Position numbers and translations under genes: made by a program
Notes under the pieces: generated by a model
What the model was told of the DNA's origin: nothing
What the model saw: only the letters and a program-made list of their open reading frames with translations
Database searches by the model: none
Shown here: piece by piece, positions 4,765 to 29,191 of the stretch
Layout: every line of letters starts with the position of its first letter
Position numbering within the stretch: the stretch's first letter is position 1
DNA from: Sphingopyxis sp. OPL5
GTDB taxonomy: Bacteria > Pseudomonadota > Alphaproteobacteria > Sphingomonadales > Sphingomonadaceae
Assembly: GCF_003797775.2 (NCBI RefSeq)
Contig: NZ_CP060725.1
Span: forward strand, 2,536,001-2,600,000
Length of the DNA: 64,000 nucleotides
Reading direction: 5' to 3'

Positions 4765-5972
4765 GCCTGGCGGGGCCTTCAGCTGGTCTGACGCCGCGCG
4801 CGCAATGGACGCTCGCGCTGCTCCAACTCATCTCCTGGGGGTCGTTCTTCTACGCCTTCTCGGTGCTCGCGCTGCCGATGGAGATCGAACTGGGCTGGTC
4901 GCGGCCTGCGATCATGATGGCGATGTCGCTCGCGCTTGTCGTCGCGGGCTTGTCGGCGCCCGTCGTCGGCAGCGCGATCGACCGCGGCCACGGCCGGTGG
5001 GTCATGACCTTCGGCAGCCTGCTCGGCGCTGCGATGCTGCTCCTCTGGTCGGCAAGCAGCGCAAAGCCTGCGCTCTACGCCGCCTGGGCCGGGCTTGGCG
5101 TCGCACAGGCGATGACCTTTTACGACGCGGGCTTCGCGGCGCTCACCCGCCGGCTTGGTGGCGGCGCACCGCGCGCGATCATGCGCATGACCTTGCTCGG
5201 CGGCTTCGCGGGCACGGTCTTCATCCCGCTGACCGGCTGGCTCGTCGATACATGGGGATGGCGCGATGCACTGATGATCCTCGCCGCGATCAATATCCTG
5301 GTCGCGGCGCCGCTCCACTGGGCGGCGCTCGCCGGCGATACGGTCGATGCGCAGGACGCCTCGGACCATGCGGCACCGGCCCCGGCCTGGTCGGCCGCGC
5401 TGCGTGAGCGCGCCTTCTGGATGCTTGTCGTCACTTTCTGCTCCTGGTCGCTCGCCTTCGGGTCGTTGACCTTCCATCTGCTGCCGTTGCTCGCCGAGCG
5501 CGGTATTTCCGATACGATGGGCATCGCGCTGCTCGCATCGGTTGGCCCGCTGCAGATCGCCGGGCGGATCGGGCTGATGCTCTATCGCGGCACCATGCCG
5601 GCGCGTCTTCTCGGTCGGTCGCTGACCGCCGCGCTCGTCGCGGCGATCCTCCTTCTCTATGTGGCGGGGGCGAACATCTGGATGATCGCGGCGGGCGTGG
5701 CGCTCTATGGTATCGCCAATGGCATGGTGACGATCCTGCGCGGGATCGCGGTCGCCCATTATCTGGGCGTGGCTGGGTTCGGGCGCAAAAGCGGGATGAT
5801 CAGCGCAATCAACGGCTTCGCGCTCGCGCTCGCGCCCTATGCGGCGGGGCTGCTCTGGACGGGTGGGGGCTATGCGCTGGTGCTCGCCGGCCTTGCCGGT
5901 GCGGCGAGCGTAGGCGCACTCGCCTTCTGGTCGCTGCCCGCCGCGGGGCGGACGCGCGCGGACGAGGCCTAA
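4761..5972 (+). CDS. MFS transporter, possible arsenical exporter
   Basis: A 403-residue major-facilitator protein with about 12 membrane helices. It starts at TTG 4761, overlapping the preceding stop (TTGA). The N-terminal half begins WTLALLQLISWGSFFYAFSVL and a short cytoplasmic linker near residues 195-210 (DAQDASDHAAPAPAW) separates the halves. It closes an arsR-arsI-hydrolase-flavoprotein run, so it may export an arsenic species, as ArsK or ArsJ do in other ars clusters. The sequence alone does not tell which. Its last 4 bases overlap the convergent TetR gene. Confidence 0.8.
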   Translation: MSLAGPSAGLTPRAQWTLALLQLISWGSFFYAFSVLALPMEIELGWSRPAIMMAMSLALVVAGLSAPVVGSAIDRGHGRWVMTFGSLLGAAMLLLWSASSAKPALYAAWAGLGVAQAMTFYDAGFAALTRRLGGGAPRAIMRMTLLGGFAGTVFIPLTGWLVDTWGWRDALMILAAINILVAAPLHWAALAGDTVDAQDASDHAAPAPAWSAALRERAFWMLVVTFCSWSLAFGSLTFHLLPLLAERGISDTMGIALLASVGPLQIAGRIGLMLYRGTMPARLLGRSLTAALVAAILLLYVAGANIWMIAAGVALYGIANGMVTILRGIAVAHYLGVAGFGRKSGMISAINGFALALAPYAAGLLWTGGGYALVLAGLAGAASVGALAFWSLPAAGRTRADEA

Positions 5973-6583
5973 CTGCGGGGAACCAAACCCTCGAACAGGA
6001 CTTCGAGAAAATCGTCCGCCATTTCGAGCGCGGGCGGGCGGTCGGGACCGGCCGGCAAACGCGCGATACCGTTGAAAGCGGCATAGAGCAGCCGGCTGGT
6101 GACGACGGGTTTGCACCGACGCACCGACCCGTCGGCGATGCCTTCCTCGATCATCGTGGCGACCGCTTTTCCGAGCGCAAGCTGCGCCTTGCGCGTCGTC
6201 TCGCGCTCATCCTCGGCCATTTCGCTGAAATCGGTCAGGACGAAGCAGCGGCCGAAATCCTCGCTGACGATCTCGGCATAGCGGCGGAAAAAGGCGGCAA
6301 GGCGGGCACGGCCGTCGGGCTCGCCGCGCGAGAGGCCGAGCGCTTCGATCAGCTGCTGGCGTGCGATGTCGCCGCAAGCAGTGAGCAGCGCGTCCTTGCT
6401 CCGCGCATAATGGTAGAGCGCCGCGCGCGTCATGCCGAGCTCGCGCGCGACATCCTCGAGCGTCGCCTGGCGAAAGCCGAGGTCGCTGAACACATTCGCC
6501 GCGGCGCGCAGCACCTCGATGCGGCGGTCGCCGAAGCGGTTATTGGGCCGGCCGCGCGGCTTGCTGATCGTTCGTGTCGCCAT
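5969..6583 (-). CDS. TetR/AcrR-family repressor
   Basis: A 204-residue TetR-type regulator. The N-terminal helix-turn-helix is ATLEDVARELGMTRAALYHY (about residues 40-59); the rest is an all-helical ligand domain, typical for fatty-acyl or xenobiotic sensing. It is read in the same direction as the downstream catabolic genes and is convergent with the MFS gene. Its 5' side faces the SDR gene end across about 80 bp. It is likely to repress the acyl-CoA catabolism genes to its right; no operator can be assigned with certainty. Confidence 0.88.
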   Translation of the reverse strand: MATRTISKPRGRPNNRFGDRRIEVLRAAANVFSDLGFRQATLEDVARELGMTRAALYHYARSKDALLTACGDIARQQLIEALGLSRGEPDGRARLAAFFRRYAEIVSEDFGRCFVLTDFSEMAEDERETTRKAQLALGKAVATMIEEGIADGSVRRCKPVVTSRLLYAAFNGIARLPAGPDRPPALEMADDFLEVLFEGLVPRS

Positions 6584-6665
6584 GGAGTCTCCGTTGCGAT
6601 GACTTGTGGCCTGCGAACCCGCGGGTCAAGGCCATGGACGGACGTGCCGCCCATGGCCTCTTCCG

Positions 6666-7493
6666 TCAGATGCTGACGCCGCCCCCAACGATCAGCGTCT
6701 GGCCGCTCACATAATTGCTTTCGGGAATGCAGAAGAGATAGACGCCCCCGGCGGCTTCCTCGGCCGTGCCCGCGCGTCCGAGCGGCACCATGGCAGGCAG
6801 CGCCGACAGCGCCGACTGCGGCACGCCCGCCTGCACTTCCTTGCCCTCGATCACGATCTTCGATGCGGGATCGTCGAGCGGCTTGGTGAGGCGTGTTTCG
6901 ATGAAGCCGAAGGCGACGCAGTTCACGCACACCTTGTAGCGGCCCCATTCCTTGCTCATCGTCTTGGTCATCCCGACGAGCGCCGACTTGGCCGACGAAT
7001 AGTTGATCTGCCCGGCATTGCCGTGCGTGCCCGCCATCGACGAGATCAGCACCACCTTGCGGAAATTCTCCTCCCCAGCGGCGGCTTCCTGCTTGGCGAA
7101 CAGGCGGATCGGCTCGGCCGCCGCGCGCAGGATACGAAAAGGCGCGACAACATGGACGTCGAGCATCTTCTGAAACTGGTCGTCGCCCATCTTCTGGACG
7201 ACGCCGTCGAGCGTGTAGCCCGCGTTCGAGACGATGATGTCGAGCCCGTTGAAGGTCTTGATCGCGGTGTCGACGAAGCGGTCGCCGAAATCGGCGTCGG
7301 TGACATTGCCGACGCAGGCAATGGCGTCGCCGCCGAGATCCTTGATCGCCTTTACCACTTCGGCCGCAGGTTCTTCGTCGAGATCGTTGACGACGATACG
7401 CGCGCCATCGCGCGCGAGCTTGAGCGCGAGCGCGCGGCCGATGCCGCGGCCCGAACCCGAAATAAGGGCAACTTTGCCCGCCAATCTGGTCAT
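6666..7493 (-). CDS. Short-chain dehydrogenase/reductase
   Basis: A 275-residue SDR oxidoreductase. The cofactor loop is SGSGRGIG (12-19), NAG is at 90-92, and the catalytic Ser151/152, Tyr165 and Lys169 are all present (INYSSAKSAL). It is longer than a minimal SDR, with an insert at 135-145 before the active-site strand and another near 205-230. In a beta-oxidation-like cluster it probably oxidises a 3-hydroxyacyl-CoA or a ring or side-chain hydroxyl. It lies 13 bp after the MaoC gene and is the last catabolic gene of the minus-strand run. Confidence 0.88.
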   Translation of the reverse strand: MTRLAGKVALISGSGRGIGRALALKLARDGARIVVNDLDEEPAAEVVKAIKDLGGDAIACVGNVTDADFGDRFVDTAIKTFNGLDIIVSNAGYTLDGVVQKMGDDQFQKMLDVHVVAPFRILRAAAEPIRLFAKQEAAAGEENFRKVVLISSMAGTHGNAGQINYSSAKSALVGMTKTMSKEWGRYKVCVNCVAFGFIETRLTKPLDDPASKIVIEGKEVQAGVPQSALSALPAMVPLGRAGTAEEAAGGVYLFCIPESNYVSGQTLIVGGGVSI

Positions 7494-7506
7494 ATTCTTC
7501 TCCCTG

Positions 7507-7929
7507 TCAGTTGATCTGGATGACGGCTTCGCCGTCGATCGTCGTCGTACCGGCGTCGGTCTGGGTGCGCAGCGCGAGGCGCGCGCAGCGCTTATCGCCG
7601 TCGTCGAATATTTCGGTGATCTCCCCGCTCGAGGTCACGGTCGCATAGAGCGGCGTGATCGCGGTGAAGCGCACGGTCCAGTTCAGCAGCCGTTCCTGCG
7701 GCACCCAATGGGTGACCAGCTGGGCAAGATAGGCCATCGACAACATGCCATGACCGAAGACGTCGGGCATGCCGGCCGCCTTGGCGAAGTCGCTGTCGAT
7801 ATGGAGCGGCACATAATCGTTCGACGCGCCGGCGAAAAGCGCGAGCGTCGCGCGGTTGATCGGTCCCTGCACATGCGCGGGGAGGGTGTCGCCGACGCGA
7901 AGCGCGGCGAGATTGGTCATGTTGGTCAT
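7507..7929 (-). CDS. MaoC-family enoyl-CoA hydratase, catalytic-type subunit
   Basis: A 140-residue single hot-dog protein of the MaoC family, adding water to enoyl-CoA. The R-hydratase motif is intact in NDYVPLHIDSDFA, with Asp38 and His43 as the expected catalytic pair. The start at 7929 is chosen because GAGAGGG lies 8 bases upstream; an earlier in-frame ATG at 7986 would run deep into the partner gene. It follows the second MaoC gene by 14 bp. Two adjacent single-domain MaoC proteins, one with and one without the catalytic His, resemble heteromeric hydratases such as ChsH1-ChsH2 of steroid side-chain degradation. Confidence 0.87.
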   Translation of the reverse strand: MTNMTNLAALRVGDTLPAHVQGPINRATLALFAGASNDYVPLHIDSDFAKAAGMPDVFGHGMLSMAYLAQLVTHWVPQERLLNWTVRFTAITPLYATVTSSGEITEIFDDGDKRCARLALRTQTDAGTTTIDGEAVIQIN

Positions 7930-7943
7930 CGCTGGTGTCCCTC

Positions 7944-8390
7944 TCATCCGTTCCGCACGACGGTGACGACGCGCATATCGACGCACAGGTCGCCCGCGGC
8001 GTTTGTGGCCTTCGTGTCCTGGACGATGAACTCGAGCGCGCCGCCCTTCTTCTCGTAGATATCGCTGGTCGTCGTCGTCAGCGTGATCGTCTCGCCGGCA
8101 TAGATCGGCCGATGATAGGTAAAGCTCTGCTCGCCATGCAGGATGCGGTGCATATCGACCCCCATGTCGCCGAGCAGATTGCCTTTCGTCGGCGGCGCGC
8201 CGAGCGCGAGGCTGAAGGCGAAGGTCGGCGGCGCCGGCAGGGCGGGATGCCCTGCGGCGCGCGCCTTATCCTCGTCGAAATAGATGGGGTTGGTCTCGCC
8301 GGTCGCATGGGCGAAGAATTTGAGTTGGCCCTTTTCGACATCGATCTGGCGAGGCTCGGACGTGAAGCCCTTGAAGCTCTGGTCGATCAT
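7944..8390 (-). CDS. MaoC/FAS1-like dehydratase partner subunit
   Basis: A 148-residue hot-dog protein of the FAS1-like dehydratase type. The region matching the hydratase motif reads TGETNPIYFDEDKA, where Tyr37 replaces the catalytic His, so it is probably the non-catalytic, substrate-accommodating half of a heteromer with the neighbouring MaoC protein. It is co-directional with short gaps on both sides (9 bp to the thiolase stop). The pair arrangement suggests a bulky CoA thioester substrate. Confidence 0.85.
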   Translation of the reverse strand: MIDQSFKGFTSEPRQIDVEKGQLKFFAHATGETNPIYFDEDKARAAGHPALPAPPTFAFSLALGAPPTKGNLLGDMGVDMHRILHGEQSFTYHRPIYAGETITLTTTTSDIYEKKGGALEFIVQDTKATNAAGDLCVDMRVVTVVRNG

Positions 8391-8399
8391 GTCCGCCTC

Positions 8400-9581
8400 C
8401 TATGCCTGGCCGAAAAGGGTGACGACGCAGGCGCCGCCAAGGCCGAGATTATGCTGGAGCGCATGGCGGGCGCCTTCGACCTGGCGCCGGTCGGCGCTGC
8501 CGCGCAGCTGGTGCGTAAGTTCGAAGCACTGCGCGAGTCCCGTCGCGCCGAGCGGATGACCCTTGGAAAGCAGGCCGCCCGAAGGGTTGGTGACCACCTT
8601 GCCGCCATAGCTGTTGTCGCCATCGTCGATGAATTTCTCGGCGCCGCCCTCGGGGCAGAGGCCGAGCGCCTCATAGGTGACGAGTTCGTTGGCGGTGAAA
8701 CAGTCGTGCAGCTCGACGACCGCGACATCGTCGGGGCCGATCCCGGCTTCCTCATAGACCTGCCGCGCGGCCTCCTTCGCCATGTCATAGCCGATGACCT
8801 TCATCATCGACGGCTCGAAGCTCGTCTCGGTATCGGTCGTCATCGACTGGGCGACGATCTCGACTCGCGCATCGAGGCCATGCTTCGCGGCAAAGGCGGG
8901 CGAGACGAGGATTGACGCGGCGGCGCCGCAGGTCGGCGGGCAGGCCTGAAGCCGCGTGAGCGGGCCGTAAAGCTTCGGCGAAGCCATCACTTCCTCCAAG
9001 CTGATCGGGTCGCGGAAGAGGGCGAGCGGGTTGTTCGCGGCATGGCGGCGCGCCTTCACCGAGATTTTGGCAAACGTTTCGTCCTTGGCGCCATAACGCT
9101 CCTGATAGTCGCGTCCGCCGCCGCCGAAGAGCTGCGCCGCCCACGGGGCTTTCTCGTCCGCGCCCTGGATCGCATGGGTCACGTTGGTGTGCCGCTCCAT
9201 CGGCGCCTTGCGGTCGTGAAAGACATTGCCTAGCGCGCCGGGGAGCATTTGTTCGAACCCGACCGCGAGCACGCAATCGGCGCCGCCGAGCGCGATCAGC
9301 TGGCGCGCAAGGAAGAGCGCGGTCGATCCGGTCGAGCAATTATTGTTGACGTTGACGATCGGAATGCCGGTGCAGCCGACGCGGTAGATCGCCGACTGAC
9401 CCGCGGTCGAATCGCCATAGACATAACCGGCATAGGCCTGCTGGACATGGCTGTAGTTCAGCCCGGCGTCGGCGAGCGCCAGATTGATAGCCTCTTCGGC
9501 CATGCTGTCCCAGTCGCCGGCCTGGCTCGGTTTCTGGAACGGCACCATGCCGACTCCCGCTACGCGCGCTTTGATCGTCAT
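8400..9581 (-). CDS. SCP-x-type thiolase / lipid-transfer protein
   Basis: A 393-residue thiolase-fold protein of the SCP-x/Ltp type, cleaving or retro-aldol splitting a 3-oxo- or 3-hydroxyacyl-CoA. The nucleophilic Cys is in NVNNNCSTGSTAL; the family motifs VELHDCFTANE and GHPLGATG supply the catalytic histidines. ATG 9581 is chosen because GAGGAGA lies just upstream; the frame stays open further up only by base composition. It sits between the acyl-CoA dehydrogenase (24 bp) and the MaoC pair (9 bp). Ltp2-like aldolases act together with such MaoC pairs in steroid side-chain removal, so this is either a thiolase or an aldolase. Confidence 0.88.
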   Translation of the reverse strand: MTIKARVAGVGMVPFQKPSQAGDWDSMAEEAINLALADAGLNYSHVQQAYAGYVYGDSTAGQSAIYRVGCTGIPIVNVNNNCSTGSTALFLARQLIALGGADCVLAVGFEQMLPGALGNVFHDRKAPMERHTNVTHAIQGADEKAPWAAQLFGGGGRDYQERYGAKDETFAKISVKARRHAANNPLALFRDPISLEEVMASPKLYGPLTRLQACPPTCGAAASILVSPAFAAKHGLDARVEIVAQSMTTDTETSFEPSMMKVIGYDMAKEAARQVYEEAGIGPDDVAVVELHDCFTANELVTYEALGLCPEGGAEKFIDDGDNSYGGKVVTNPSGGLLSKGHPLGATGLAQCFELTHQLRGSADRRQVEGARHALQHNLGLGGACVVTLFGQA

Positions 9582-9604
9582 CTCTCGTCTCCTCAATGTC
9601 GCCG

Positions 9605-10759
9605 CTACAGAGCGCGGGCGATCAGGGTTTTCATGATTTCGTTGGTGCCGGCGTAAATCCGGGCGACGCGCGCGTTGGTCCACATCCGCGCGATCGGATA
9701 TTCGGCCATATAGCCGTAACCGCCGTGGAGCTGGAGGCACTCGTCGGTCACCCGGCCGAGCGCTTCGCTGGTCCAATATTTGGCCATCGCGGCGGTCGCG
9801 GCGTCGAGCTCGCCGGCGAGCAGGCGCACCATCATCTCGTCGATGAAGACGCGCGCGACGACGGCCTGCGTCTTGCACTCGGCGAGCTTGAACTGGGTGT
9901 TCTGGAATTCGGCGATCGGCTTGCCGAAGGCGCTGCGCTGCCGGACATAGTCGGTCGTGACGCGCACCGCTTCTTCCATCTCGACGACGCAGTTGAGCGC
10001 GACCGATGTCCGCTCCCACGCAAGCTGCTCCATGAGCTGGTAGAATCCGCGGCCTTCCTCGCCGCCGAGAAGATTGTCGTGCGGCACAAAAACTTCATCG
10101 AAGAAAAGCTCGGAAGTGTCCTGCGCGTGCATCCCGACCTTGTGGAGATTGCGGCCGCGCCGGAAGCCCTCTGCTTCGCCCGTTTCGACGATAAGCAGTG
10201 AGATGCCCTTCGCGCCCGCCGCCGCGGTGTCGGTCTTGGCGACCACCACCACGACACCGGCATTCTGCCCGTTGCTGATGAAGGTCTTCTGGCCGTTGAT
10301 CACATACCCGTCGTCGCTGCGCCGTGCCGTCGTGCGCACCGCCTGGAGGTCCGACCCGGTGCCGGGCTCGGTCATAGCGACCGCGCCGATCAGCTCGCCG
10401 GTCGCCATGCGCGGCAGCCAGCGGTGACGCTGCGCCTCGGTGCCATAAGCGAGGATATAATGGGCGACGATTCCCGAGCTGACATTGTTGCCGGTGCCGA
10501 AGCCGCCCCACAGGCCGGCCCGCACCACCTCCTGCGCGATGACCGCTTCGTGGGCGAGCGTTCCACCGCCGCCGCCATATTCGGCGGGGATGCTCGCGCA
10601 GAGCAACCCCGCCGTCCCGGCGCGCCGCCAGGCGTCGCGATCGACGACGCGCTCGGATTCCCAGCGTTCGGCGTGTGGCACCAGTTCGCGCGCGACGAAC
10701 TTGGCCGCTTCGTCGGCGAGCATCGCGAGCTCGTCGTCCATCCATGGTGAACGCTTCAT
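9605..10759 (-). CDS. Acyl-CoA dehydrogenase
   Basis: A 384-residue FAD acyl-CoA dehydrogenase introducing an alpha,beta double bond. MTEPGTGSDLQAVRTTA binds FAD and substrate. The C-terminal loop is IYAGTNEIM, which lacks Glu at the MCAD position; the base is then expected in the helix-G region (LAWERTSVAL), as in isovaleryl-CoA and long-chain dehydrogenases. ATG 10759 is preferred over 10789 because AAAGGA lies at the right distance and family members begin RSPWMDDEL. It heads the minus-strand run of thiolase, MaoC pair and SDR. Confidence 0.9.
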   Translation of the reverse strand: MKRSPWMDDELAMLADEAAKFVARELVPHAERWESERVVDRDAWRRAGTAGLLCASIPAEYGGGGGTLAHEAVIAQEVVRAGLWGGFGTGNNVSSGIVAHYILAYGTEAQRHRWLPRMATGELIGAVAMTEPGTGSDLQAVRTTARRSDDGYVINGQKTFISNGQNAGVVVVVAKTDTAAAGAKGISLLIVETGEAEGFRRGRNLHKVGMHAQDTSELFFDEVFVPHDNLLGGEEGRGFYQLMEQLAWERTSVALNCVVEMEEAVRVTTDYVRQRSAFGKPIAEFQNTQFKLAECKTQAVVARVFIDEMMVRLLAGELDAATAAMAKYWTSEALGRVTDECLQLHGGYGYMAEYPIARMWTNARVARIYAGTNEIMKTLIARAL

Positions 10760-10844
10760 GTCGAATCCTTTAACTTGCGCGACAGTCAATTATATCAAAG
10801 CGAGGCGGAGTCAAGCGCGGCCGAAGCGCGGCCCGCGTCGAAGC

Positions 10845-11999
10845 TCAGCCTTGCGCCGCGATGTCCTGTTTGATCTTGTTGGCGATCGACCAACGATGCA
10901 CTTCGGAAGGCCCGTCGTAGATGCGGAAGGCGCGCAGCTCGCGAAACACGCGCTCGACGATCGTGTCGCGGGTCACCCCGAGCCCACCGAGAATCTGCAC
11001 ACAGCGATCGGCAACGCGATAGAGCGCTTCGGACACCGCGACCTTGGCCATGCTCGATTCCTGGCTGCCGCGCCCGCCGGCGTCGAGGATGTCGGCGCAC
11101 CAGTCGGTGAGAAGTTCAGCCGATTTGAGATCGATCAGATTGTCGGCGAGCATGAAGCCCACGCCTTCATGGTCGATCAGCGGCTTGCCGAAGGCCATGC
11201 GCTCGCAGGCATAGCGCGCAGCGACATCATGCGCGCGTTGCGCGGCCCCGGTCCAGCGCATGCAATGCGTGAGCCGCGCCGGCGCCAGCCGCACCTGCGC
11301 ATAGCGCAGCCCTTGGCCAACTTCGCCGAGGACATCGGCGTCGGCGACGACGAGACCGTTCAGCGAAATGACCGCATGCCCGCCGGGCAGCGCGCTGTCG
11401 AGCGTATCAAGCACGCGTTCGATAACGATCTCGTCGCGTTCCATATCGCTGAGGAACATTGTCGGGCCCGCCTCGGTCATCGCCATGATGATTGCGAACC
11501 GGGCACCCGTCGCGCCGGTGATTAGCCATTTGCGGCCGCTGATGCGCCACCCGCCGTCGATGCGTTCGGCACGGGTCTTCATGAGTGACGGATCGGACCC
11601 GGCGCCATTGTCGGGTTCGGTCATGAGGAAGACCGAGCGCGCGAAGCCGCTCGCGAGCGGTTCGAGGATATCGGCCTTCTGTGCCTCGGATGCAACGCGT
11701 TCGAGCAGGTGCATATTGCCCTCGTCTGGCGCCGCGATGTTGAGGGCGACCGGGCCAAGCGGCGAATAGCCCGCCGCCCGGAAGAGCCGAGCGGTGTCGC
11801 GCATCGAGAGCGCCGGACGGCCGGCCCGGGCGAGATGCGGCGCGATGAGGCCGGCGGCGCGCGCAGCGCTGCGCATATCATCGACGAGTTCGGACGATGG
11901 GCCGTGGCTGCCCCAGCGCCCATCCTGTTCGAGCGGGATGAGCTCGTCGCGGACGAACGCAGCGGTGCGCTCGACAAGGCTTTCGACAGCTTGGGACAT
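10845..11999 (-). CDS. Acyl-CoA dehydrogenase, ACAD10/11 (LvaC)-like
   Basis: A 384-residue acyl-CoA dehydrogenase-fold protein. FLMTEPDNGAGSDPSLMKTRA marks the FAD/substrate region and the C-terminal motif is IYDGPSEVHRWSIAN. The DGPxEVH signature is that of ACAD10/ACAD11 and bacterial LvaC-type proteins rather than of classical dehydrogenases. In that group the enzyme works with a partner kinase: the 4-hydroxyl of an acyl-CoA is phosphorylated, then phosphate is eliminated. A kinase of exactly that type is encoded divergently 89 bp away, which strongly suggests the same partnership here (inference). Confidence 0.85.
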   Translation of the reverse strand: MSQAVESLVERTAAFVRDELIPLEQDGRWGSHGPSSELVDDMRSAARAAGLIAPHLARAGRPALSMRDTARLFRAAGYSPLGPVALNIAAPDEGNMHLLERVASEAQKADILEPLASGFARSVFLMTEPDNGAGSDPSLMKTRAERIDGGWRISGRKWLITGATGARFAIIMAMTEAGPTMFLSDMERDEIVIERVLDTLDSALPGGHAVISLNGLVVADADVLGEVGQGLRYAQVRLAPARLTHCMRWTGAAQRAHDVAARYACERMAFGKPLIDHEGVGFMLADNLIDLKSAELLTDWCADILDAGGRGSQESSMAKVAVSEALYRVADRCVQILGGLGVTRDTIVERVFRELRAFRIYDGPSEVHRWSIANKIKQDIAAQG

Positions 12000-12088
12000 C
12001 TCGCTCTCCTCCCGGCATATCAGCGCCGCTTGATTTAATTACCCGTCGCGTTAGTTAATTAAAGATCAGAGTCAAGCAGGAGGACGCG
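12000..12088. promoter_or_regulatory. Divergent promoter with TTAATTA inverted repeat
   Basis: The 89-bp gap between the divergent ACAD and kinase genes holds an AT-rich inverted repeat, TTAATTA (12035-12041) and TAATTAA (12056-12062), separated by 14 bp. This is the only AT-rich stretch in a GC-rich neighbourhood. It is a candidate operator for the TetR or LysR regulator of the cluster, controlling both genes together. Confidence 0.45.
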
Positions 12089-13162
12089 ATGTTCACGGCC
12101 GAAGACGACATGGACGGGACCGGCCCTGTTCGCGAGGGGCAGGCAATCGACACGGTGCGCGTGGCAAGCTGGCTCGCGGGGCGTGTGCCGGTCGCGCCCC
12201 CACTCACGATCAGCCAGTTCAAGGGCGGCCAGTCGAATCCGACCTATCTCGTGACCGATGCCGCAGGCGCCCAATATGTCCTGCGGCGCAAGCCGCCCGG
12301 CGCGCTGCTCGGGTCGGCGCACCAGGTCGAACGCGAATATCGGGTCATGTCGGCGCTCGCACCGACAGGTCTGCCCGTTCCGCGCATGATCGGTCTCTGC
12401 GAAGATGCCGACGTCATCGGTTCGGACTTCTACGTCATGAATTATGTGTCCGGGCGGTCCTTCTGGGATCAGCGTCTTCCCGGACTCGAAGCTTTCGAGA
12501 AGAAAGCGATCTACGCCGCGATGGTGTCGACGCTCGCGCAGCTCCATCGCGTCGACCCGGCGGCTGTGGGCCTTGCGGACCTCGGCCGACCCGATGGCTA
12601 TGTAAGCCGGCAGGTCGAGCGCTGGACAAAGCAATATCGTGCGTCCGCGCGCACGCGCATCGCGCCGATGGAAGACGTTATCGCATGGATTGGCGGGCAC
12701 GCGCCCCAAGGCGAGGCGGGCGTCCTCATCCACGGCGACTTCCGGCTCGACAATCTGATCTTCGATGCGCGCGAGCCGCGCATCGCGGCGATCCTCGACT
12801 GGGAAATCTCGACGCTTGGCGATCCACTCGCTGACCTTGCCTTCCAGCTCTTCGCCTATTGGCTACCGCCAGAGATACTCAACGGAATTTCAGGAATTGA
12901 GGGCGAACTCGGACTGCCGTCGGAGGCTGACCAGCTCGCCTGTTACGAGGCCGCGTCGGGCCGGGCCATCGGTCCCGACTGGCCGCTCTACCGCATCTAT
13001 ATCCTGTTTCGCCTCGCGGCGATCTTCCAGGGGATCGAAGGCCGGGTCCGCGACGGGACAAATTCGAACCCGCGCGCCGAAAAGCTCGTCGGAATGACCG
13101 AACCGCTCGCGCGGCTCGCCCTAGCGCGGATCGAGGCCTGGGAGCGCGGGATGCGCGACTAG
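12089..13162 (+). CDS. APH-fold kinase, ACAD10/11 N-domain / LvaA-like
   Basis: A 357-residue aminoglycoside-phosphotransferase-fold kinase. The catalytic loop is [14 protein letters not shown] (HGDxxxxN, about residues 213-226) and the metal-binding stretch is [19 protein letters not shown]. These are the forms found in the kinase domains of human ACAD10/ACAD11 and in LvaA, which phosphorylate the 4-hydroxyl of a 4-hydroxyacyl-CoA, not antibiotics. It is divergent from the ACAD10/11-like gene and convergent with LysR (4-bp overlap). An antibiotic-resistance role is unlikely given the DWE motif and neighbours. Confidence 0.87.
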
Positions 13163-14079
13163 ACGGGCGCGTCGTCCGAAAGGCGGCGGATGCGCAGCCG
13201 CAGCATCTCGATGAGCGGTTTGGCGGCGGTGGTTTCGTTCCAACCCACGCGCGTCGCGACGTGGAAGAGCATCGGTGGCACCGGCGACCAGTCGTGCCAC
13301 ACGCGAAAGGTCTCATCGAATTCGGGCGCCGCGGCATAGCGCGAGAAGGCGAAGGAGAAGCTGTCGGTGCGCTCGACGATGCGCAGCGACAGCGCGAAAC
13401 TGTCGACGGTGAGATGCGGTATCCGGTAGGGCGAATTGCTCGCGCTCGCGATGTTGTTGATGAACGTCGTGTGCGGATCGGCGTGCGACGGCCCGACCAT
13501 TGGATAAGCCAGGAGCTCCTCGAAGCTCGGTGGCTCGGGCCGATCGAGCGGGTGCCCGCGCCGCACAAACGGGGACACCGCGAGGCTCGCGATATCCTCG
13601 ATTTGCAGCGAGCCATTGCCGCGCAGCGCCTCGAGCGATCCGATCGCGAAATCGAGATCGCCCGACTGGAGCAGCGACGATATCTCTTCGACCGATTCGG
13701 CCGACGTCGCGACCTCGATCCCGGGGTAGCGCGCGGCGAAGATCGGCAGCACTTCGAACCAGAACAGACGGAACGAGGCGGGGGCGGCGCCCATCCGCAC
13801 GCGGCCGCGGTCGGTGGTCCGTGCGCTGCGCGCGAACCGTTCGAGTGTCGCCGCCTCTTCGAGCAGTTTTGTGCCGCCTTCGATGAACTGCTCCCCTTCG
13901 CGGGTCAGGCGAATGCCGCGCGGTCCGCGCTCGAAAACCTGGATGCCGAGATTGTCTTCGAGAATCTGGACGCTGCGCGTCAGCGCCGACTGGGTGATGT
14001 TGAGCGTCGCCGCAGCCTTGGCGAATCCGCCCTGTCTCGCGATCTCAATGACATGGTTCACCTTGCGCAAATCCAGCAT
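13159..14079 (-). CDS. LysR-family transcriptional regulator
   Basis: A 306-residue LysR regulator. The winged helix is [20 protein letters not shown] (residues 17-36) and the effector-binding domain fills the rest. It faces the acyl-CoA ligase gene across a 144-bp gap, the classic arrangement for a LysR and its target. That gap contains CCCA-AAA-TGGG (14142-14152) and a GGAC-AGGT-GGAC repeat, candidate regulator sites. The inducer is unknown; a CoA intermediate or free acid of the pathway is likely. Confidence 0.9.
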
Positions 14080-14223
14080 TTCGCTCTCCGCCTATCTCGG
14101 CCACGCACAAGCCCATCGATAAAAGACATTGGACAGGTGGACCCAAAATGGGCTGGCTCTACGCGCGCATTAGCACGGCGAACGCGGCGCAATACAAGAA
14201 GACAAATGGGACAGGGGATTGGA

Positions 14224-15777
14224 ATGTTTGTTCAGGCGATCTTGCGCGCAGCCCAGCTCCGGGGCGACGAGGCCGCGACGATCTGCGATGGCCGCACGCG
14301 AAGCTGGTCTGAATCGGCCGATCGCACCGCACGGCTCGCCACCGCCCTGGTCGGCCTTGGCGCGCGCGCCGGTGACCGGATCGCTATCCTGGGTCTGAAC
14401 AGCGATCATTATCTCGAGGCAATGCACGCGACATGGTGGCTTGGCGCGATAACCGTGCCGATGAACACGCGCTGGGCGATCGCCGAGCATCTCTACAGCG
14501 CCCGCGACGCGGGCTTTTTGATCATTTTCGTCGACGAGGCGAACAAGGCGTGCGCCGCCGAGCTTGCGCGCGCCGAGCCGGCGCTCGGGCCATTTATCTA
14601 TATGGGCGAGGACGCCCCGCCAGCGAACATGATCGCAATGGAGGCGTTGATCGCCGAAGCGGCGCCGCTGCCGCCCGCGCCGCAACCGAACGAAGCGGTC
14701 ACCGGCATCTACTATACCGGCGGCACGACAGGCCATCCCAAGGGCGTCATGCACAGCGCTTTGTCGCTCTGGGCCGGGGCGACCTGCATCGCGATGGAGA
14801 TGCAGGGCCCGCGGCACCATCGCTATCTCCACGCCGCGCCGATGTTCCACCTCGGCGATCTCGCGCAGGCTTATGCCACCACCGCGAAGGCGGGCTGCCA
14901 TGTCTTCGTTCCGGGATTCACCGCCGACGGCGTGGCCAAGGCGATCCGCGAGCACGGGGTCGAAGTCACGTTGCTCGTGCCCACTATGATCGGCATGCTG
15001 CTCGATCACCCCTCTTTCGATCCTGCCGATCTGGCCTCGCTCGAAGTGCTGCTGTTCGGTGGATCGCCGATCTCCGAGACCGTGCTCGGGCGGATGCGGG
15101 CGGCGCTGCCGCACACGCGGCTGATCCAGGGGTTCGGCCAGACCGAGACGATGGCAACGGGGTCGATGCTACCCGATGACGGCGCGGCGCTCGACGTCGC
15201 CGACCCGCGCCGCCAGTCGGCGGGGCGCGCCGCCTATGGGATCCAGCTTGGTATCTTCGACGATTGCGGCCAGCCCGTTGCGGCTGGCGCGACCGGCGAA
15301 ATCTGGATACGCGGGGCGAGTGCGATGCTCGGCTATTGGAACAAGCCCGTGGAAAGCGCCGCAGCGCTGACCGACGGCTGGGTCCATACCGGTGACGCGG
15401 GCTATCTCGACGCGGACGGCTATCTCTTCGTCTGTGACAGGGTGAAAGACATGGTGATCTCGGGCGGCGAGAATGTCTTCTCGGCCGAGGTCGAAAACGC
15501 CATCGCTTCGCATCCCGACGTCGCGCAGGTCGCGGTCATCGGCGTCCCTGACGCTCGCTGGGGCGAGCGCGTGCATGCGGTGATTGTTCCTGTGCCCGAG
15601 CGCGAGCCCGACCTTTCCGCGATCCAGGACCACTGCCGCACACTGATCGCGGGCTACAAGATCCCGCGCAGCGTTGAGCTCCGCCGCGAGCCGCTTCCGC
15701 TTTCCGCCGTCGGCAAGGTCCTCAAGACCAAGCTGCGCGAACCGCACTGGCAGGGCCATGAGCGGCGGGTCAGCTGA
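14224..15777 (+). CDS. AMP-forming acyl-CoA synthetase
   Basis: A 517-residue ANL-superfamily ligase activating a carboxylic acid to its CoA ester with ATP. The P-loop is YYTGGTTGHPKGV; the hinge region is GWVHTGDAGYLDADGYLFVCDR; the C-domain lysine is in SAVGKVLKTKL. ATG 14224 follows AGGGGATTGGA; the ATG at 14206 is an alternative start 6 codons earlier. The open frame continues far upstream without a start context and is not coding there. As the entry enzyme it should feed the neighbouring dehydrogenases, hydratases and thiolase. Probably controlled by the divergent LysR. Confidence 0.9.
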   Translation: MFVQAILRAAQLRGDEAATICDGRTRSWSESADRTARLATALVGLGARAGDRIAILGLNSDHYLEAMHATWWLGAITVPMNTRWAIAEHLYSARDAGFLIIFVDEANKACAAELARAEPALGPFIYMGEDAPPANMIAMEALIAEAAPLPPAPQPNEAVTGIYYTGGTTGHPKGVMHSALSLWAGATCIAMEMQGPRHHRYLHAAPMFHLGDLAQAYATTAKAGCHVFVPGFTADGVAKAIREHGVEVTLLVPTMIGMLLDHPSFDPADLASLEVLLFGGSPISETVLGRMRAALPHTRLIQGFGQTETMATGSMLPDDGAALDVADPRRQSAGRAAYGIQLGIFDDCGQPVAAGATGEIWIRGASAMLGYWNKPVESAAALTDGWVHTGDAGYLDADGYLFVCDRVKDMVISGGENVFSAEVENAIASHPDVAQVAVIGVPDARWGERVHAVIVPVPEREPDLSAIQDHCRTLIAGYKIPRSVELRREPLPLSAVGKVLKTKLREPHWQGHERRVS

Positions 15778-15824
15778 CCCGTGCGCCGACTGCCTTTGAC
15801 CGATTTTCCGGGGACCCCGTATTC

Positions 15825-16790
15825 ATGGCCGATTTGATTTCGCCTTCGCTCGAACGTCAGACCGCTCGCGGTCTGACAGACCGGCTGAAGCTTCCGCTTG
15901 TCGTCGCGCCGATGTTTAAGGTGTCGACCCCCGAACTGGTCGTCGCTTCGTGCCGCGCCGGTGCAATCGGGTCCTTTCCATCGATCAATGCCCGCACGCC
16001 GGCGTTATTCGATGACTGGATGACGCGCATCGCGGGCGAGCTCGAAGCAACCCGCGCCGCCGGCGAGACCCCCGCCCCGATGGCGGTGAACCTCCTGACC
16101 CACGACAGCAATCCGCGCTTCGAGCCCGATTTCGAGATCGTAAGAAAATGGGAGCCCCCGGTGGTGATCACGAGCGTCGGGCGGCCCGAGGTCGTGATCG
16201 ACGCGGTGCATGGCTATGGCGGCCTCGTCTTCGCCGACGTGGTGTCGCTTCACCATGCGCGCCGCGCGGCGCGCTGCGGGGTCGACGGCATGGTCCTGCT
16301 CTGCGCCGGCGCCGGCGGCCAGACCGGACGCCTCAACCCGATGGCGTTCGTCGAGGCGGTCCGGCAATTTTACGACGGGATCCTTATCGTCGCGGGCGGT
16401 ATCACGCGCGGTTACCAGCTTCGCGCGCTCGAACTGATGGGCGCCGACCTCGCTTATTGCGGCACGCGCTTCATCGTAACGCCCGAAAGCGGGGCGCCCG
16501 ACGAGCATAAGTCGGCGATCATCGACGCCGAGATCGACGATGTCTGGGATAGCGACGCGATGAGCGGAATTCCGGCGAGCATGCTGCGCAGTTCGCTCGA
16601 GCGGCTCGGGCTCACCCCCGAGACGCGCTGGCTGCAGGAAAAGCGCGAAAAATATGACTGGAGCGCGGTCAAGGAAACGCCTGGCGTCTATTCGCTCGGC
16701 CATGGCGCAACCGACATCGCAAGCGAGGAAAGCACGGCATCGATCATCGCCCGCATGATCGCCGAGTATCAAGCGGCGTCGGCGCGATAG
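15825..16790 (+). CDS. NMO/FabK-like FMN oxidoreductase
   Basis: A 321-residue TIM-barrel flavoprotein of the nitronate monooxygenase (2-nitropropane dioxygenase) group. The N-terminal strand is LPLVVAPMFKVSTPELVVA; the FMN-phosphate sites are VAGGITRGYQL and LAYCGTRFIVTPES. The motif that normally carries the catalytic His (GGHxG) reads CAGAGGQTGRLNP, so Gln occupies the His position and true nitronate oxidation is doubtful. Follows the acyl-CoA ligase by 47 bp and is probably co-transcribed. An enoyl-CoA reductase or other FMN role in the acyl pathway is possible. Confidence 0.8.
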   Translation: MADLISPSLERQTARGLTDRLKLPLVVAPMFKVSTPELVVASCRAGAIGSFPSINARTPALFDDWMTRIAGELEATRAAGETPAPMAVNLLTHDSNPRFEPDFEIVRKWEPPVVITSVGRPEVVIDAVHGYGGLVFADVVSLHHARRAARCGVDGMVLLCAGAGGQTGRLNPMAFVEAVRQFYDGILIVAGGITRGYQLRALELMGADLAYCGTRFIVTPESGAPDEHKSAIIDAEIDDVWDSDAMSGIPASMLRSSLERLGLTPETRWLQEKREKYDWSAVKETPGVYSLGHGATDIASEESTASIIARMIAEYQAASAR

Positions 16791-16994
16791 CGCGCGCGGC
16801 CGGGCACGGTATCGCGGCCTGCGGTCCTTCGCCGCGGGCGGCGCCTTGGCGTGGAAAAAGGCCGGGCGCGCGCCGTGCAGCGCGCGCATTGCCCTATGTA
16901 TATTCGAGATTGGACAGCGGGGCGCCCAGCCTGTCTTCTCATAAAGCGACGTGGCCCGTGAAGAGGCCCCGCGGGGGAGGTTTTGGCGAGCCGG

Positions 16995-17011
16995 GTGCGA
17001 TCAGATCGCAC
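16995..17011. promoter_or_regulatory. Perfect 17-bp palindrome upstream of TonB receptor
   Basis: GTGCGATC-A-GATCGCAC is a perfect dyad 79 bp before the receptor start. A second dyad, CCCCGCGGGG, lies at 16967-16976. Either can be an operator or a leader hairpin. The rest of the roughly 300-bp gap 16791-17089 shows no gene. Confidence 0.45.
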
Positions 17012-17089
17012 GGCGCGTCCCGGATGTTCCCTCAATGAAAATGGCGGGGTCTTCATGACCTTTGCCCGGAGAGGATTGAGGAGCTTCAA

Positions 17090-19372
17090 ATGCGATTGAC
17101 CATCAAGGCGCGTCATCTGGTGGGGACCAGCTGCCTCGGCATGATGCTGGCCTGTGCGCCGGCCGTGTCGGCGCAAGAGACCGGGCCGCAGGACGCGGAG
17201 ACGCAGCGCGCGGGCATCGAGGATATCGTCGTGACGGCCAACCGCCGGACCGAAAATGTTCAGGATGTGCCGCTGTCGATCACCGCCATTTCGTCATCCG
17301 ACATCGAAAGCGAACGGATCCAGTCGACGTCCGATCTCGGCCGGCTCGTGCCGACGATCACCGATGCCGGTCTGCCCGCGGTTTCGGGCGGCGGTCTCAC
17401 CATCCGCGGCATTCGCGGAAATGATCGCTCGGCGGGTGCCGATCCGCCAAACGGCCTCTTCGTCGATGGCGTCTATTTCGGGCGCCCCGAAGATGGTGAC
17501 GCATTGCTGTTCGACGTCGAACGCATCGAAGTGCTGCGCGGTCCGCAGGGCACATTATTCGGGAAGAATGTCGTCGGCGGCGCGATCAACGTGACGACCA
17601 AGGCTCCCTCTCAGAAGCTCGAGGCCATCGTCACCGGCACCTATGGCAATTACAATCGCATCGAAGGCCAGGCCGCCGTCTCGGGACCGCTCACCGACAC
17701 GATCGCGGCCGGGATTTCGGTCCAGTCGCAATCATCGGATGGCTATGCCCACAATGTGATCACCGGCAACGACCTGATGGGGACGAGCCGGAACGCGATC
17801 CGCGGGCGGATCGACTTCGAGGTGACACCCGAGTTCACCAGCTCCTTCTCGGCCAATTACGAGCGCGTCCGCGATGGCGGTCTCGCTTCCTATGAAGTCG
17901 CGAAGCCGGCGCTGCCGGCGGCCTATTATCCCGTCGATCTCGACCAGCCGCGCGATGCGGCTCAGAATATCGACGGGTTCCGCAATCGCAACGCCTTCAG
18001 CTTCATCGCGACACAGAATTACCGGGGCGAGGCGATCGGCTTCAAATCGATCACGGCCTATCGCGGATCGAGCAACCACACCTTCTATGACGTCGACGGC
18101 ACTCCGCTGCCGATCACCAGTCAGGAGCAGTTCGATCGCTACCGGCAGTTCAGCCAGGAATTGCAGCTCTCGTCGCCCGAGGATGCCAAGGCGCTGCGCT
18201 GGGTCGCCGGACTCTATTATTTCCGAGCAACGACCGACCAGCTGACCGAGAATATCATCCGGCCGCCCGACGGGACGTTCGTGAATGTCCTCAACAACCA
18301 GCTCGGCTTCGGACCCGGACCGCATGTCACGCCCAACTCGCAGGATGTGCTGACGATCAACTATGCGGCTTTCGGGCAGGCGACGCTGGCGGTCACCGAC
18401 CAGCTTAACCTGACCGCGGGCATTCGCTACACGATCGAGAAGAAGAAGGGCATGTCGGCGACCTTCGGCGACCGCGACGTCTCGCTCTTCCCGGGGCTTC
18501 CCGAGTTGCTCCCGCCGGTTGCCGGCGGGCCGCTCACCGGGCGGATCGAAGGCAATATCGATCGCACCTGGAAAGCATGGACCCCGCGCGTCGCGATCGA
18601 CTATTCGCCGGTCGAGGACATCATGTTCTATGCCTCGGCGTCGCGCGGCTTCAAGGGCGGCGGCTTCACTGGCCAGAACGGCTCGCTCGCGACGATCAGC
18701 CGGACCTTCAATCCTGAATTTGCCTGGAACTACGAGCTCGGTCTGCGCTCGCGCTTCCTCGACAACCGGGCGCAGGTCAATGCGACGCTGTACCAGATGG
18801 ATTACAGCAATCTGCAGGTCACGACGATCATCGGCACTTCGCGGGTCACCGACAATGCCGCGAATGCGCGCATCCGGGGGCTCGAGGTCGAGACCGAGTT
18901 CATCCCGGTCGACGGGCTGACCACGGCTTTGTCCTACGCCTACACCGACGCCAAATATCGCGACTATATCGACGGCTCGGGACGCGATCTCAGCGGGAAT
19001 AAATTCCCCGGGGTGTCGCGGCACGTCATCAACCTTCGCGCCGATTATGCGTGGGACGTCGGTGGCGGAGAGCTGACCTTGTCGGGCGGTCTCACCTACC
19101 GGAGCAAGCGTCCGAACAATTCGGTCAACTCGCCCGAGGTGACGGTCGCGCCGGTGACGACCTATGACGCGTCGCTCGCCTATGAGAAGGGCAGCGTCGA
19201 GCTCCGGCTCTGGGCGCGGAATATCACCAACGAGCGCTACATCGTGACAGCGAACGACGTGACAGCCTTCTTCTATCTGTCGCCGACCTCGGCAAATGCG
19301 ACGACGTCGAGCTTCCTCGTCAACTATTCCCAGCCGCGGACCTTCGGCATCACCGGAACCTGGCGCTACTGA
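17090..19372 (+). CDS. TonB-dependent outer-membrane receptor
   Basis: A 760-residue TonB-dependent receptor. A signal peptide ends near AVSAQE (residue about 27). The TonB box/plug start is EDIVVTANRRTENVQDVPLSI, followed by the plug (LGRLVPTITD, VEVLRGPQGTLFGKNVVGGAINVTTK) and a beta-barrel ending in an aromatic TWRY. The VTANRR-VQDVPLSI type is abundant in sphingomonads and often imports hydrophobic or aromatic compounds. It follows the acyl-CoA gene run on the same strand with its own long leader, so it may import the substrate of that pathway. GAGAGGATTGAGGAG precedes the start. Confidence 0.92.
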   Translation: MRLTIKARHLVGTSCLGMMLACAPAVSAQETGPQDAETQRAGIEDIVVTANRRTENVQDVPLSITAISSSDIESERIQSTSDLGRLVPTITDAGLPAVSGGGLTIRGIRGNDRSAGADPPNGLFVDGVYFGRPEDGDALLFDVERIEVLRGPQGTLFGKNVVGGAINVTTKAPSQKLEAIVTGTYGNYNRIEGQAAVSGPLTDTIAAGISVQSQSSDGYAHNVITGNDLMGTSRNAIRGRIDFEVTPEFTSSFSANYERVRDGGLASYEVAKPALPAAYYPVDLDQPRDAAQNIDGFRNRNAFSFIATQNYRGEAIGFKSITAYRGSSNHTFYDVDGTPLPITSQEQFDRYRQFSQELQLSSPEDAKALRWVAGLYYFRATTDQLTENIIRPPDGTFVNVLNNQLGFGPGPHVTPNSQDVLTINYAAFGQATLAVTDQLNLTAGIRYTIEKKKGMSATFGDRDVSLFPGLPELLPPVAGGPLTGRIEGNIDRTWKAWTPRVAIDYSPVEDIMFYASASRGFKGGGFTGQNGSLATISRTFNPEFAWNYELGLRSRFLDNRAQVNATLYQMDYSNLQVTTIIGTSRVTDNAANARIRGLEVETEFIPVDGLTTALSYAYTDAKYRDYIDGSGRDLSGNKFPGVSRHVINLRADYAWDVGGGELTLSGGLTYRSKRPNNSVNSPEVTVAPVTTYDASLAYEKGSVELRLWARNITNERYIVTANDVTAFFYLSPTSANATTSSFLVNYSQPRTFGITGTWRY

Positions 19373-23223: not shown

Positions 23224-26200
23224 TCATTTCTCCTTCGGGTTGATCGCTGTTGGCCGCGGCCTGCGCATCAGCAGATAGGCGGCGGGAATGATGAACATCG
23301 AGAGCAGGGGCGCGGTCAGCATGCCGCCGACCATCGGCGCGGCAATCCGGCTCATCACCTCGGAGCCCGTGCCGGTCCCGACGAGGATCGGAAACAGGCC
23401 GGCGAGGATAACCGCGACCGTCATCGCCTTGGGCCGGACGCGCAGCAGCGCGCCGTCGCGGACCGCGGCAATCACGTCATCGTCGCCGCGCTGGGCGAGC
23501 GCCTGCTTGAGATAGATGAGCATGACCACCCCGAACTCGGCGGCGACGCCGGCGAGCGCAATGAACCCGACCGCGCTCGCGACCGACTGATTATAGCCGA
23601 GCAGATAGAGCAGCCAGAGACCGCCGGTGAGCGCGAAAGGCATGGTCGCCATAATGAGCAAAGCCTCGTCCCAGCGGCGGAAGGTGAAGTAGAGCAGGAC
23701 CAGGATGATCGCGAGCGTGATCGGCACGACGATCTTCATCCGTTCGGCGGCACGAACGAGAAATTCGAACTGCCCGGTATAGGAAATGCTGATCCCCGGC
23801 GGCAGCTCGACCTCGCGCGCGATCGCCTGTTGCATATCCTTCACCAGCCCCTGCAGATCGCCGTCGCGGCTGTCGACATAGATGAAGGTCACCGGGCGCC
23901 CATTCTCGCTGCGCAGCATCGGCGGGCCGTCGCTGACCTTCACACTCGCCACGGTGCCGAGCGTGATCTGCTGACGCGAGGGGGTAAGGACCGGCAGGCT
24001 CGAAAGCTCGCCGAGACTGTCGCGCAGCTCGCGCGGATAGCGCACGCTGATCGGATAGCGCGCGAGCCCCTCGACCGTCTGGCCGATCGTCTCGCCGCCG
24101 ATCGCGCCCGCGATGATCGCCTGCACGTCGGCGACATTGAGACCGTAGCGCGCCGCGGCCGCGCGATCGATATCGACATCGATATAGCGGCCGCCGGTCA
24201 GCCGCTCGGCAAGCGCCGAGGCGACGCCGGGGACGCCTTTGACGACCGTCTCGATCCGTTTGGCGGTGCGGTCGATCTCGGCGAGGTCCGATCCCGCGAC
24301 CTTGATCCCGACCGGGCTCTTGATCCCCGTCGCGAGCATGTCGATCCGGTTGCGGATCGGCGGAATCCAGAAATTGGCGAGCCCTGGAACGCGAACCCGC
24401 GCATCGAGTTCCGCAATCAATTTCTCCTCGGTCATGCCGGGACGCCATTGGTCCTTTGGCTTGAAGCGGATCGTCGTCTCGAACATTTCGAGCGGCGCGG
24501 GATCGGTCGCGCTGTCGGCGCGCCCGGCCTTGCCGAACACGCTCTCGACCTCGGGCACCGTCTTGATCAGCCGGTCGGTTTGCTGGAGCAGGCTCGATGC
24601 CCGCGCCGCCGAAATGCCCGGAAGCGCCGAGGGCATATAGAGCAAATCGCCTTCGTGCAGCTGCGGCATGAACTCGCCGCCGAGCTGGATCATCGGCCAC
24701 AGGCTGGTGGCGAAGACGAGGCCAGCGATCATAAGCGCTTTTTTCGGCCGCTCGAGCACCCAGTCGAGCGCCGGCCGATAGGCGTGGGTCAGCCAGCGAT
24801 TGACCGGATTGGACTGTTCGGCAGGGATGCGGCCGCGAATCAGCCAGCCCATCAGCACCGGGATGAGCGTGATCGACAGGATCGCGGCCGCGCCCATGGC
24901 ATAGGTTTTGGTGAAAGCGAGCGGCGCGAAGAGCCGTCCCTCCTGGCCTTCGAGCGTGAAGATCGGGAGGAAGGAGAAGGTGATGATCAGCAGGCTGAGG
25001 AACAGCGCCGGACCGACTTCGGCGGCGGCGTCGGTAATCACCCGCCAGCGCTCGGCGCCCCTCAATTCTTCGCCCGGATGATCCTGCTCCCAATGCTCGA
25101 GATGCTTGTGGGCATTTTCGATCATCACCACCGCCGCATCGACCATCGCGCCGACCGCGATCGCGATGCCGCCCAGCGACAATATATTGGCGTTGAGGCC
25201 CTGCAGCCGCATGACGATGAAGGCGATCAGGATGCCGAGCGGCAGCGTCAGGATCGCCACCAGCGCAGAGCGTGCGTGCCAGAGGAAGAGCGCGCAGATG
25301 ATCGCGACAATGATGAATTCCTCGACGAGCTTCGAGGAAAGATTATCGACCGCGCGGTCGATAAGGCCCGAACGGTCATAGGTGGTGGCGATTTCGACCC
25401 CCGGCGGCAGGCTGCGCTTGAGCTCGGCGAGCTTGGCGCGCACGCCGTCGATCACCTCGCGGGCATTCTTGCCCTCGCGCATCACGATCACGCCGCCGGC
25501 GACCTCGCCCTCGCCATTGAGTTCGGCGATGCCGCGCCTGGTGTCGGGGCCTATCTGGACCGTGGCGACGTCGCCCACGGTCACCGGGATTCCGCCGCCC
25601 GCGGTACGAATCGGGACGCTGCGAAAATCGTCCAGCGACTTCAGATAGCCGCTCGCGCGAACGATATATTCGGCCTCGGCCAGCTCGAGCGTGCCGCCGC
25701 CGCTTTCCTGATTGGCGCGTTTCAGCGCGTCGGAGACGTCGGTCGCGGTCACGCCATAAGCGGCAAGTTTCTGCGGATCGACGATGATCTGATATTGGCG
25801 CACCATGCCGCCGATGCTCGCGACCTCGGCGACCCCGGGGACCGACTTAAGCTCGAAACGCAGGAACCAGTCCTGGAGGCTGCGCAGTTCGGCGAGGTCG
25901 TGGCGGCCGCTCTTGTCGACGAGCGCATATTCATAGATCCAGCCGACCCCGGTCGCATCGGGTCCGAGACTCGCGCGCGCCCCTTCGGGAAGCCGGCTTT
26001 GCACCTGGCTCAGATATTCGAGCACGCGGCTGCGCGCCCAATAGGGATCGGTGCCATCGTCGAACAGCACATAGACGAAGCTGTCGCCGACGAAGCTGTA
26101 GCCGCGCACGACGCGCGCGCCGGGCACCGAGAGCATCGTCGTCGTGATCGGATAGGTGACCTGGTCCTCGACGATCCGCGGCGCCTGGCCGGCATAAGTG

Positions 26201-28804: not shown

Positions 28805-28833
28805 ATGTCCCCCTTGAGAGATGATGAGCTAAT

Positions 28834-28859: not shown

Positions 28860-28867
28860 GGGGACCG

Positions 28868-29125: not shown

Positions 29126-29191
29126 GTTGAATTTCCTCAGGTGAAATGCCGAAGGACACGCAGCGACGAAGGTCGCCGCGCATCGCGCGTT

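Follow-up and report, generated by a model that had tools for sequence, protein, structure and literature searches.

The 64,000-nucleotide stretch of Sphingopyxis sp. OPL5 analysed here (contig NZ_CP060725.1, positions 2,536,001 to 2,600,000), hereafter the window, comes from a genome of 4.68 Mb in one contig and contains a gene for an APH-fold kinase next to a gene for a homologue of the acyl-CoA dehydrogenases (ACADs). A first-pass annotation had described such a pair, with HGDFRLDN in the kinase and DGPSEVH in the ACAD, and its presence is confirmed: both open reading frames (ORFs) are intact, they diverge from an 89-bp intergenic stretch (12000-12088), and both have good ribosome-binding sequences, AGGAGG 5' of 12089 and GGAGGAG 5' of 11999 on the minus strand. 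The two products probably perform an ATP-dependent dehydroxylation, by the kinase and then by a phosphate-eliminating ACAD homologue, that feeds beta-oxidation. The features of the pair are as follows.

10845..11999, minus strand: ACAD_H, ACAD homologue, predicted 4-phosphoacyl-CoA phosphate eliminase (Pfam, motifs, trees)
10896..10916, minus strand: DGPSEVH codons, catalytic Asp (motif location)
11256..11267, minus strand: HCMR codons, phosphate-binding helix (motif location; role according to the available text of PMC12440821)
12089..13162, plus strand: KIN, APH-fold kinase, predicted 4-hydroxyacyl-CoA kinase (Pfam, PDB match, residues, trees)

In Pfam searches the ACAD homologue matched PF00441 and PF02770. 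It contains RLAPARLTHCMR, with the motif HCMR, which the annotation had not mentioned and which is more telling than DGPSEVH. The HCMR-helix residues of ACAD11 bind phosphate (available text of PMC12440821), and all phosphate-eliminating residues of mouse ACAD11, i.e. the HCMR helix and the catalytic Asp, are retained: R237, H245, R248 and D362 of the ACAD homologue equal R626, H634, R637 and D753. The same residues were kept in 111 of 111 loci of the clade to which it belongs, a count in which motif conservation is partly selected for the 80 named loci (L031-L110), since these were retrieved by peptide patterns that included THCMRWTG. The motif was also kept in the 30 loci from a whole-protein search (L001-L030), which partly overlap with the former (e.g. 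L003/L040, L006/L069 and L024/L107); the remaining locus is a second copy in the same genome. A sequence scan confirmed at least 589 stretches that encode relatives of the ACAD homologue, and a search of the literature, largely excluding subscription papers, retrieved no title or abstract opening on this clade.

The aligned clade members were 52-66% identical to the window ACAD homologue, as compared to 32-35% for LvaC/ACAD11-type proteins. The ACAD tree recovered the window clade (37 rows: 28 random named loci, eight from plasmids and the source genome, and the window) with support values of 100/100 and the ACAD11/LvaC-type proteins (8 rows) with 100/98. The two clades were joined at 99/97, apart from 12 random ordinary ACADs, and their union still received 98/88 in a repeat tree from which six long branches had been removed. 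LvaC and ACAD10 were represented by 4hr3, mouse ACAD11 and a further six relatives from bacteria, the bacterial proteins reaching about 60% identity to ACAD11, and the plasmid row L135 was omitted because its ORF extension was too long. Orthology to LvaC/ACAD11 was rejected, since the ACAD homologue fell in a sister clade in both trees; judged by its residues, it is ACAD11-like at the active site yet no orthologue. Its top match in PDB, the Mycobacterium abscessus ACAD 4hr3 (165 bits), has the same Arg/His/Arg and Asp but HAMR in place of HCMR, and groups with the LvaC/ACAD11-type proteins.

The kinase scored 197 bits against PF01636 (APH), with HGDFRLDN at 12731-12754, and a further 13-residue motif noted in the annotation was also located. 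D217 and N222 equal the catalytic D220 and N225 of ACAD11, and the CoA-contacting arginines of the ACAD11 kinase are retained; the ACAD11 paper numbers the Arg next to the alphaC Glu as R86, and counting on the chain used here gives position 84. In one tree the window kinase grouped with the ACAD11 kinase (95/94, with 46 rows), apart from other APH proteins, and in a second tree the group was supported at 100/97, with 45 rows against two outside rows only; both trees were built without LvaA. Inside this group the window kinase formed a separate long branch with no firm place. Identity as an antibiotic kinase was rejected on scores of 28 bits to MphH and 23 bits to capreomycin phosphotransferase in PDB, and of 46.7 bits against a curated APH(3') model with a cut-off of 205. 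The kinase thus did not fall with antibiotic phosphotransferases, the outcome that the annotation had named as refuting, although the tree that places it with the ACAD11 kinase contained no antibiotic kinase. The stretches examined around L137-L142, which cover six of its seven best relatives in the order, contained no clade or ACAD11-type ACAD, although in one of them an LCAD-like ACAD is encoded about 1 kb from the kinase. PDB entry 3dxp (Reut_A1007 of Ralstonia eutropha) lies near, but outside, the group of kinases found beside other clade ACADs. The entry has "putative acyl-CoA dehydrogenase" in its molecule field and "putative aminoglycoside phosphotransferase" in its title, and is by sequence and fold a kinase of the ACAD11-kinase group.

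The same logic of phosphorylation and elimination might act on a hydroxyl that is differently placed or tertiary, for example in an isoprenoid acid of the 4-hydroxy-4-methyl type or, as for the 25-hydroxy steroid kinase, in a steroid-like alcohol. This seems unlikely, as the kinase scored 243 bits to ACAD11 against 50 bits to the 25-hydroxy steroid kinase and keeps the arginines that contact CoA, and as the phosphate-binding residues of the eliminase equal those of ACAD11. We infer, with good support from the residues conserved with tested enzymes, that the pair consists of a 4-hydroxyacyl-CoA kinase and a phosphate eliminase. The chemistry that the annotation had proposed is consistent with the phosphate-binding residues of ACAD11, with the catalytic and CoA-contacting residues of the kinase and with the position of some relatives in lva-shaped operons, with the correction that the ACAD homologue is not orthologous to LvaC/ACAD11.

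We also examined how often clade ACADs are accompanied by a kinase. A kinase was present in the examined flank, which varied in length, of 31 of the 80 named loci and in none of the flanks of the other 49. These 49 ACADs still hold the phosphate-binding residues. Over all 111 loci, duplicates included, 43 had a kinase, which was on the opposite strand only in the window and co-directional in the other 42 (some of them duplicates); the divergent arrangement of the window is unusual. Among 296 genomes, a related kinase was encoded somewhere in 68 of 68 with a clade ACAD and in 172 of 228 without one (Fisher p = 9e-8), a p value that ignores kinship and a test that includes 3dxp-type kinases, which also pair with ACAD11-type ACADs. 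Several of ten inspected kinase-less loci were located amid unrelated genes and a few near ligase, thiolase or SDR genes; 20 neighbours scanned at these loci included ligases (L040, L043), an ACAD (L043), a thiolase C-domain (L037) and an SDR (L039), the others being unlike, with no kinase family and no special partner gene among them. The second clade ACAD of the source genome (L112:9279-10409, at 789 kb) is 60% identical to the first, with HCMR intact, and is flanked by a transporter gene and a flagellin gene, with no kinase in the 19 kb examined.

On plasmids, annotated gene runs around the pair can be read as pathways. One in Cupriavidus oxalaticus contains a kinase, ACAD, SDR, CaiB, ligase and alcohol dehydrogenase (L121:6879-14024), one in Pseudosulfitobacter a ligase, ACAD, SDR, clade ACAD, kinase and thiolase along with a TRAP transporter, and one in Novosphingobium an OB-fold protein, thiolase, ACAD and kinase. 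The Cupriavidus run has the shape of an lva operon, but its ACAD is a clade member and its kinase is of the 9o56 type. Most other partner kinases are of the 3dxp type and the window kinase is a long branch of its own, indicating that the pairing arose more than once or that partners were swapped. We regard this recurrence with different kinases as the best indication that the two are functionally linked. An ordinary ACAD that lies by chance beside an unrelated APH-family kinase would agree with the 49 kinase-less flanks and with the abundance of APH proteins (14 matches in the source genome), but it is very improbable given that HCMR and DGPxEVH were lacking in 34 of 34 ordinary ACADs and that the pairing is seen again with kinases of clearly different lineages and within annotated runs of genes. 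Elsewhere in the source genome there are two ACAD11-type ACADs with a kinase within 3.5 kb, so that the window pair probably handles a range of substrates different from theirs. A plasmid of Sphingopyxis macrogoltabida (L117:6379-13907) encodes an ACAD11-type ACAD and a kinase beside an OB-fold protein, SDRs, an aldehyde dehydrogenase, a P450 and a ferredoxin.

The genes that surround the pair are listed below. The ligase, MaoC pair and SCP-x-type thiolase named in the annotation were all recovered by family searches.

5969..6583, minus strand: TetR-family regulator encoded at the end of the operon, which may bind the shared motif (Pfam; binding predicted)
6666..7493, minus strand: SDR, best PDB match (3R)-hydroxyacyl-CoA dehydrogenase 2et6 (Pfam, PDB)
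7507..7929, minus strand: MaoC-like subunit b, HadB/hydratase-2-like (Pfam, PDB; start codon picked by eye)
7944..8390, minus strand: MaoC-like subunit a, FAS1_DH_region, HadA/ChsH-like (Pfam, PDB match)
8400..9581, minus strand: SCP-x-type thiolase, best PDB match SCP2-thiolase type-1 6hsj, 474 bits
9605..10759, minus strand: second ACAD, an ordinary LCAD-like dehydrogenase with no HCMR (Pfam, tree)
13159..14079, minus strand: LysR-family regulator, divergent from the ligase (family search)
14224..15777, plus strand: acyl-CoA ligase, AMP-binding (Pfam, NCBIfam)
15825..16790, plus strand: NMO/FabK-like flavoprotein (Pfam, NCBIfam, PDB)
17090..19372, plus strand: presumably a TonB-dependent receptor, with a possible role in uptake and uncertain membership in the pathway

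The two MaoC-like subunits are similar to HadA/HadB, ChsH and hydratase 2, and by sequence resemblance a set like that of MFE-2 and SCPx is complete, with an SDR similar to (3R)-hydroxyacyl-CoA dehydrogenase, a MaoC pair of the hydratase-2 type and a thiolase of the SCP2 type. A variant of the levulinate (lva) operon is the least probable alternative: the kinase, ACAD, SDR and ligase are like lvaA, C, D and E as given in the available text of PMC6692424, but there is no space for LvaB (12 kDa, about 108 codons) since the largest gap in 5969-17090 is 299 bp (16791-17089), the regulators are TetR and LysR rather than LvaR-type, the lva genes that this text names include neither a MaoC pair nor an SCPx thiolase, the SDR is nearest to (3R)-hydroxyacyl-CoA dehydrogenase, and the ACAD is outside the LvaC/ACAD11-type clade. 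A crude gene caller with a floor of 80 amino acids found no LvaB-like gene among the cluster genes, an absence that is weak evidence alone, as the cluster of P. citronellolis is also without LvaB (same text of PMC6692424).

Two promoters of the cluster share a sequence motif.

10779..10798, minus strand: second motif copy TTGATATAATTGACTGTCGC, upstream of the LCAD-like/SCPx operon (shuffle test, pattern scan)
12030..12049, plus strand: operator-like motif TTGATTTAATTACCCGTCGC (shuffle test, pattern scan)
12034..12063, no strand: palindrome TTTAATTA-N14-TAATTAAA in the divergent promoter (inverted-repeat search)

The palindrome that the annotation had placed between the two genes thus exists, but is weak evidence alone, since 23 of 1000 shuffles of the 89-bp stretch contained an equally good inverted repeat. 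The two 20-bp copies are identical at 16 of 20 positions, a level that none of 300 dinucleotide-preserving shuffles reached. No third site was found in the window with up to 3 mismatches to the derived pattern, the pattern scan of the window gave no such motif at the ligase promoter, and the next best site in the genome had 2 mismatches. A first operator pattern was weaker than the second and was set aside. Both were written after the two sites had been seen, so that counts of exact matches are circular and it is the shuffle test and the absent third site that count. The shared motif links the pair with the beta-oxidation operon and suggests that one regulator acts on both promoters, perhaps the TetR protein of the operon.

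The distribution of the thiolase is narrow. Of the 296 genomes searched in the order, 6, the source genome among them, encoded close SCPx relatives (E <= 1e-165); the 15 other genomes searched from the same genus encoded none at this threshold. Four of the five other genomes retain the order SCPx-MaoC-MaoC-SDR, in L159:5922-11632 (with LCAD-like and ligase genes), L161:7592-10493, L162:7575-10415 and L163:303-3225, and neither the kinase nor a clade ACAD occurred in the examined stretches of the five. The 4-hydroxy step therefore looks like an added entry module, which suggests a modular origin of the cluster. The cassette is accompanied in one genome by three CoA-transferase III genes and an NMO, and in another by biotin carboxylase, FMO, enoyl-CoA hydratase and CoA-transferase III, which weakly suggests methyl-branched substrates. 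The whole cluster was not found around LCAD-like relatives in eight regions (L143-L150), six of which had no other cluster homologue, one an SDR of 55% identity and one no more than weak matches to the ligase, TetR and TonB; the ORF pickers used for neighbouring loci are crude.

The region is flanked by a TrbI gene and metal-efflux genes and, given the absence of close SCPx relatives in the genus-mates, the cluster looks accessory and may be located on or beside a mobile element. TrbI (2-685) marks the end of a Trb conjugation operon. The segment 1681-5972 encodes a regulator of the helix-turn-helix type, a glyoxalase-fold protein and an FMO-like protein, to which inspection by eye adds a hydrolase and a transporter. 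Just past the cluster, 23224-32162 encodes an AcrB/CusA-type efflux pump, a CusB-like adaptor and, in addition, a P-type ATPase that has a heavy-metal-binding domain.

For the two-enzyme dehydroxylation, the predicted reactions, their order and their control would be as follows. The CoA ligase would activate a hydroxy acid, and the kinase (12089-13162) would phosphorylate the acyl-CoA at its 4-hydroxyl. The ACAD homologue (10845-11999), with FAD, the catalytic Asp362 and the phosphate-binding Arg237, His245 and Arg248, would then eliminate phosphate, leaving a 2-enoyl-CoA. This product would be hydrated by the MaoC pair, the SDR would oxidise the resulting (3R)-hydroxyacyl-CoA and the SCPx-type thiolase would cleave the product of that step. 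The LCAD-like ACAD would serve later rounds, and a TetR-type repressor may control both promoters through the shared operator. A methyl-branched or bulky chain is hinted at by the SCPx thiolase and by the company of the cassette elsewhere.

More tentatively, and with rather less confidence than in the route itself, the clade may represent a second family of phosphate-eliminating ACADs, so far unrecognised, whose members became partners of hydroxyacyl-CoA kinases on at least two and perhaps three occasions, with the kinase often encoded elsewhere in the genome. In the window it might serve branched or bulky, perhaps tertiary, 4-hydroxy acids in a bacterial counterpart of the peroxisomal route of ACAD11, MFE-2 and SCPx. 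If so, the 4-hydroxy acid route would be widened from one ACAD subfamily to two, the combination of HCMR and DGPxEVH would predict phosphate elimination, and many proteins now named plain acyl-CoA dehydrogenase or aminoglycoside phosphotransferase would be re-labelled. The window would also offer separate small enzymes for the study of the FAD mechanism, which is deemed unclear by the authors of the ACAD10/11 work (available text of PMC12440821).

Among known systems, the 25-hydroxy steroid kinase of Sterolibacterium is likewise an APH-fold kinase in an ATP-dependent dehydration, but its substrate is a tertiary steroid alcohol that carries no CoA, and it is distant from the window kinase at 50 bits. 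The lva operon of Pseudomonas putida also combines a kinase (LvaA) with an ACAD-fold eliminase (LvaC) acting after it, with a ligase and an SDR nearby, and some clade relatives are located in lva-shaped operons; the window differs in having neither LvaB nor LvaR, in the added MaoC pair, SCPx thiolase, second ACAD and TetR, and in an ACAD to which the LvaC/ACAD11 type is a sister clade, LvaA and LvaC being represented in these comparisons by relatives only. MFE-2 and SCPx are peroxisomal, and the SDR, hydratase pair and thiolase of the window resemble them. ACAD11 is itself peroxisomal (available text of PMC12440821), and bacterial orthologues can replace the domains of ACAD10 (available text of PMC11342911). 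The window pair has both domains of the mammalian ACAD11/ACAD10 fusions, their catalytic residues and their fold, but as two separate divergent genes, with an ACAD from a sister clade and a kinase on a long branch.
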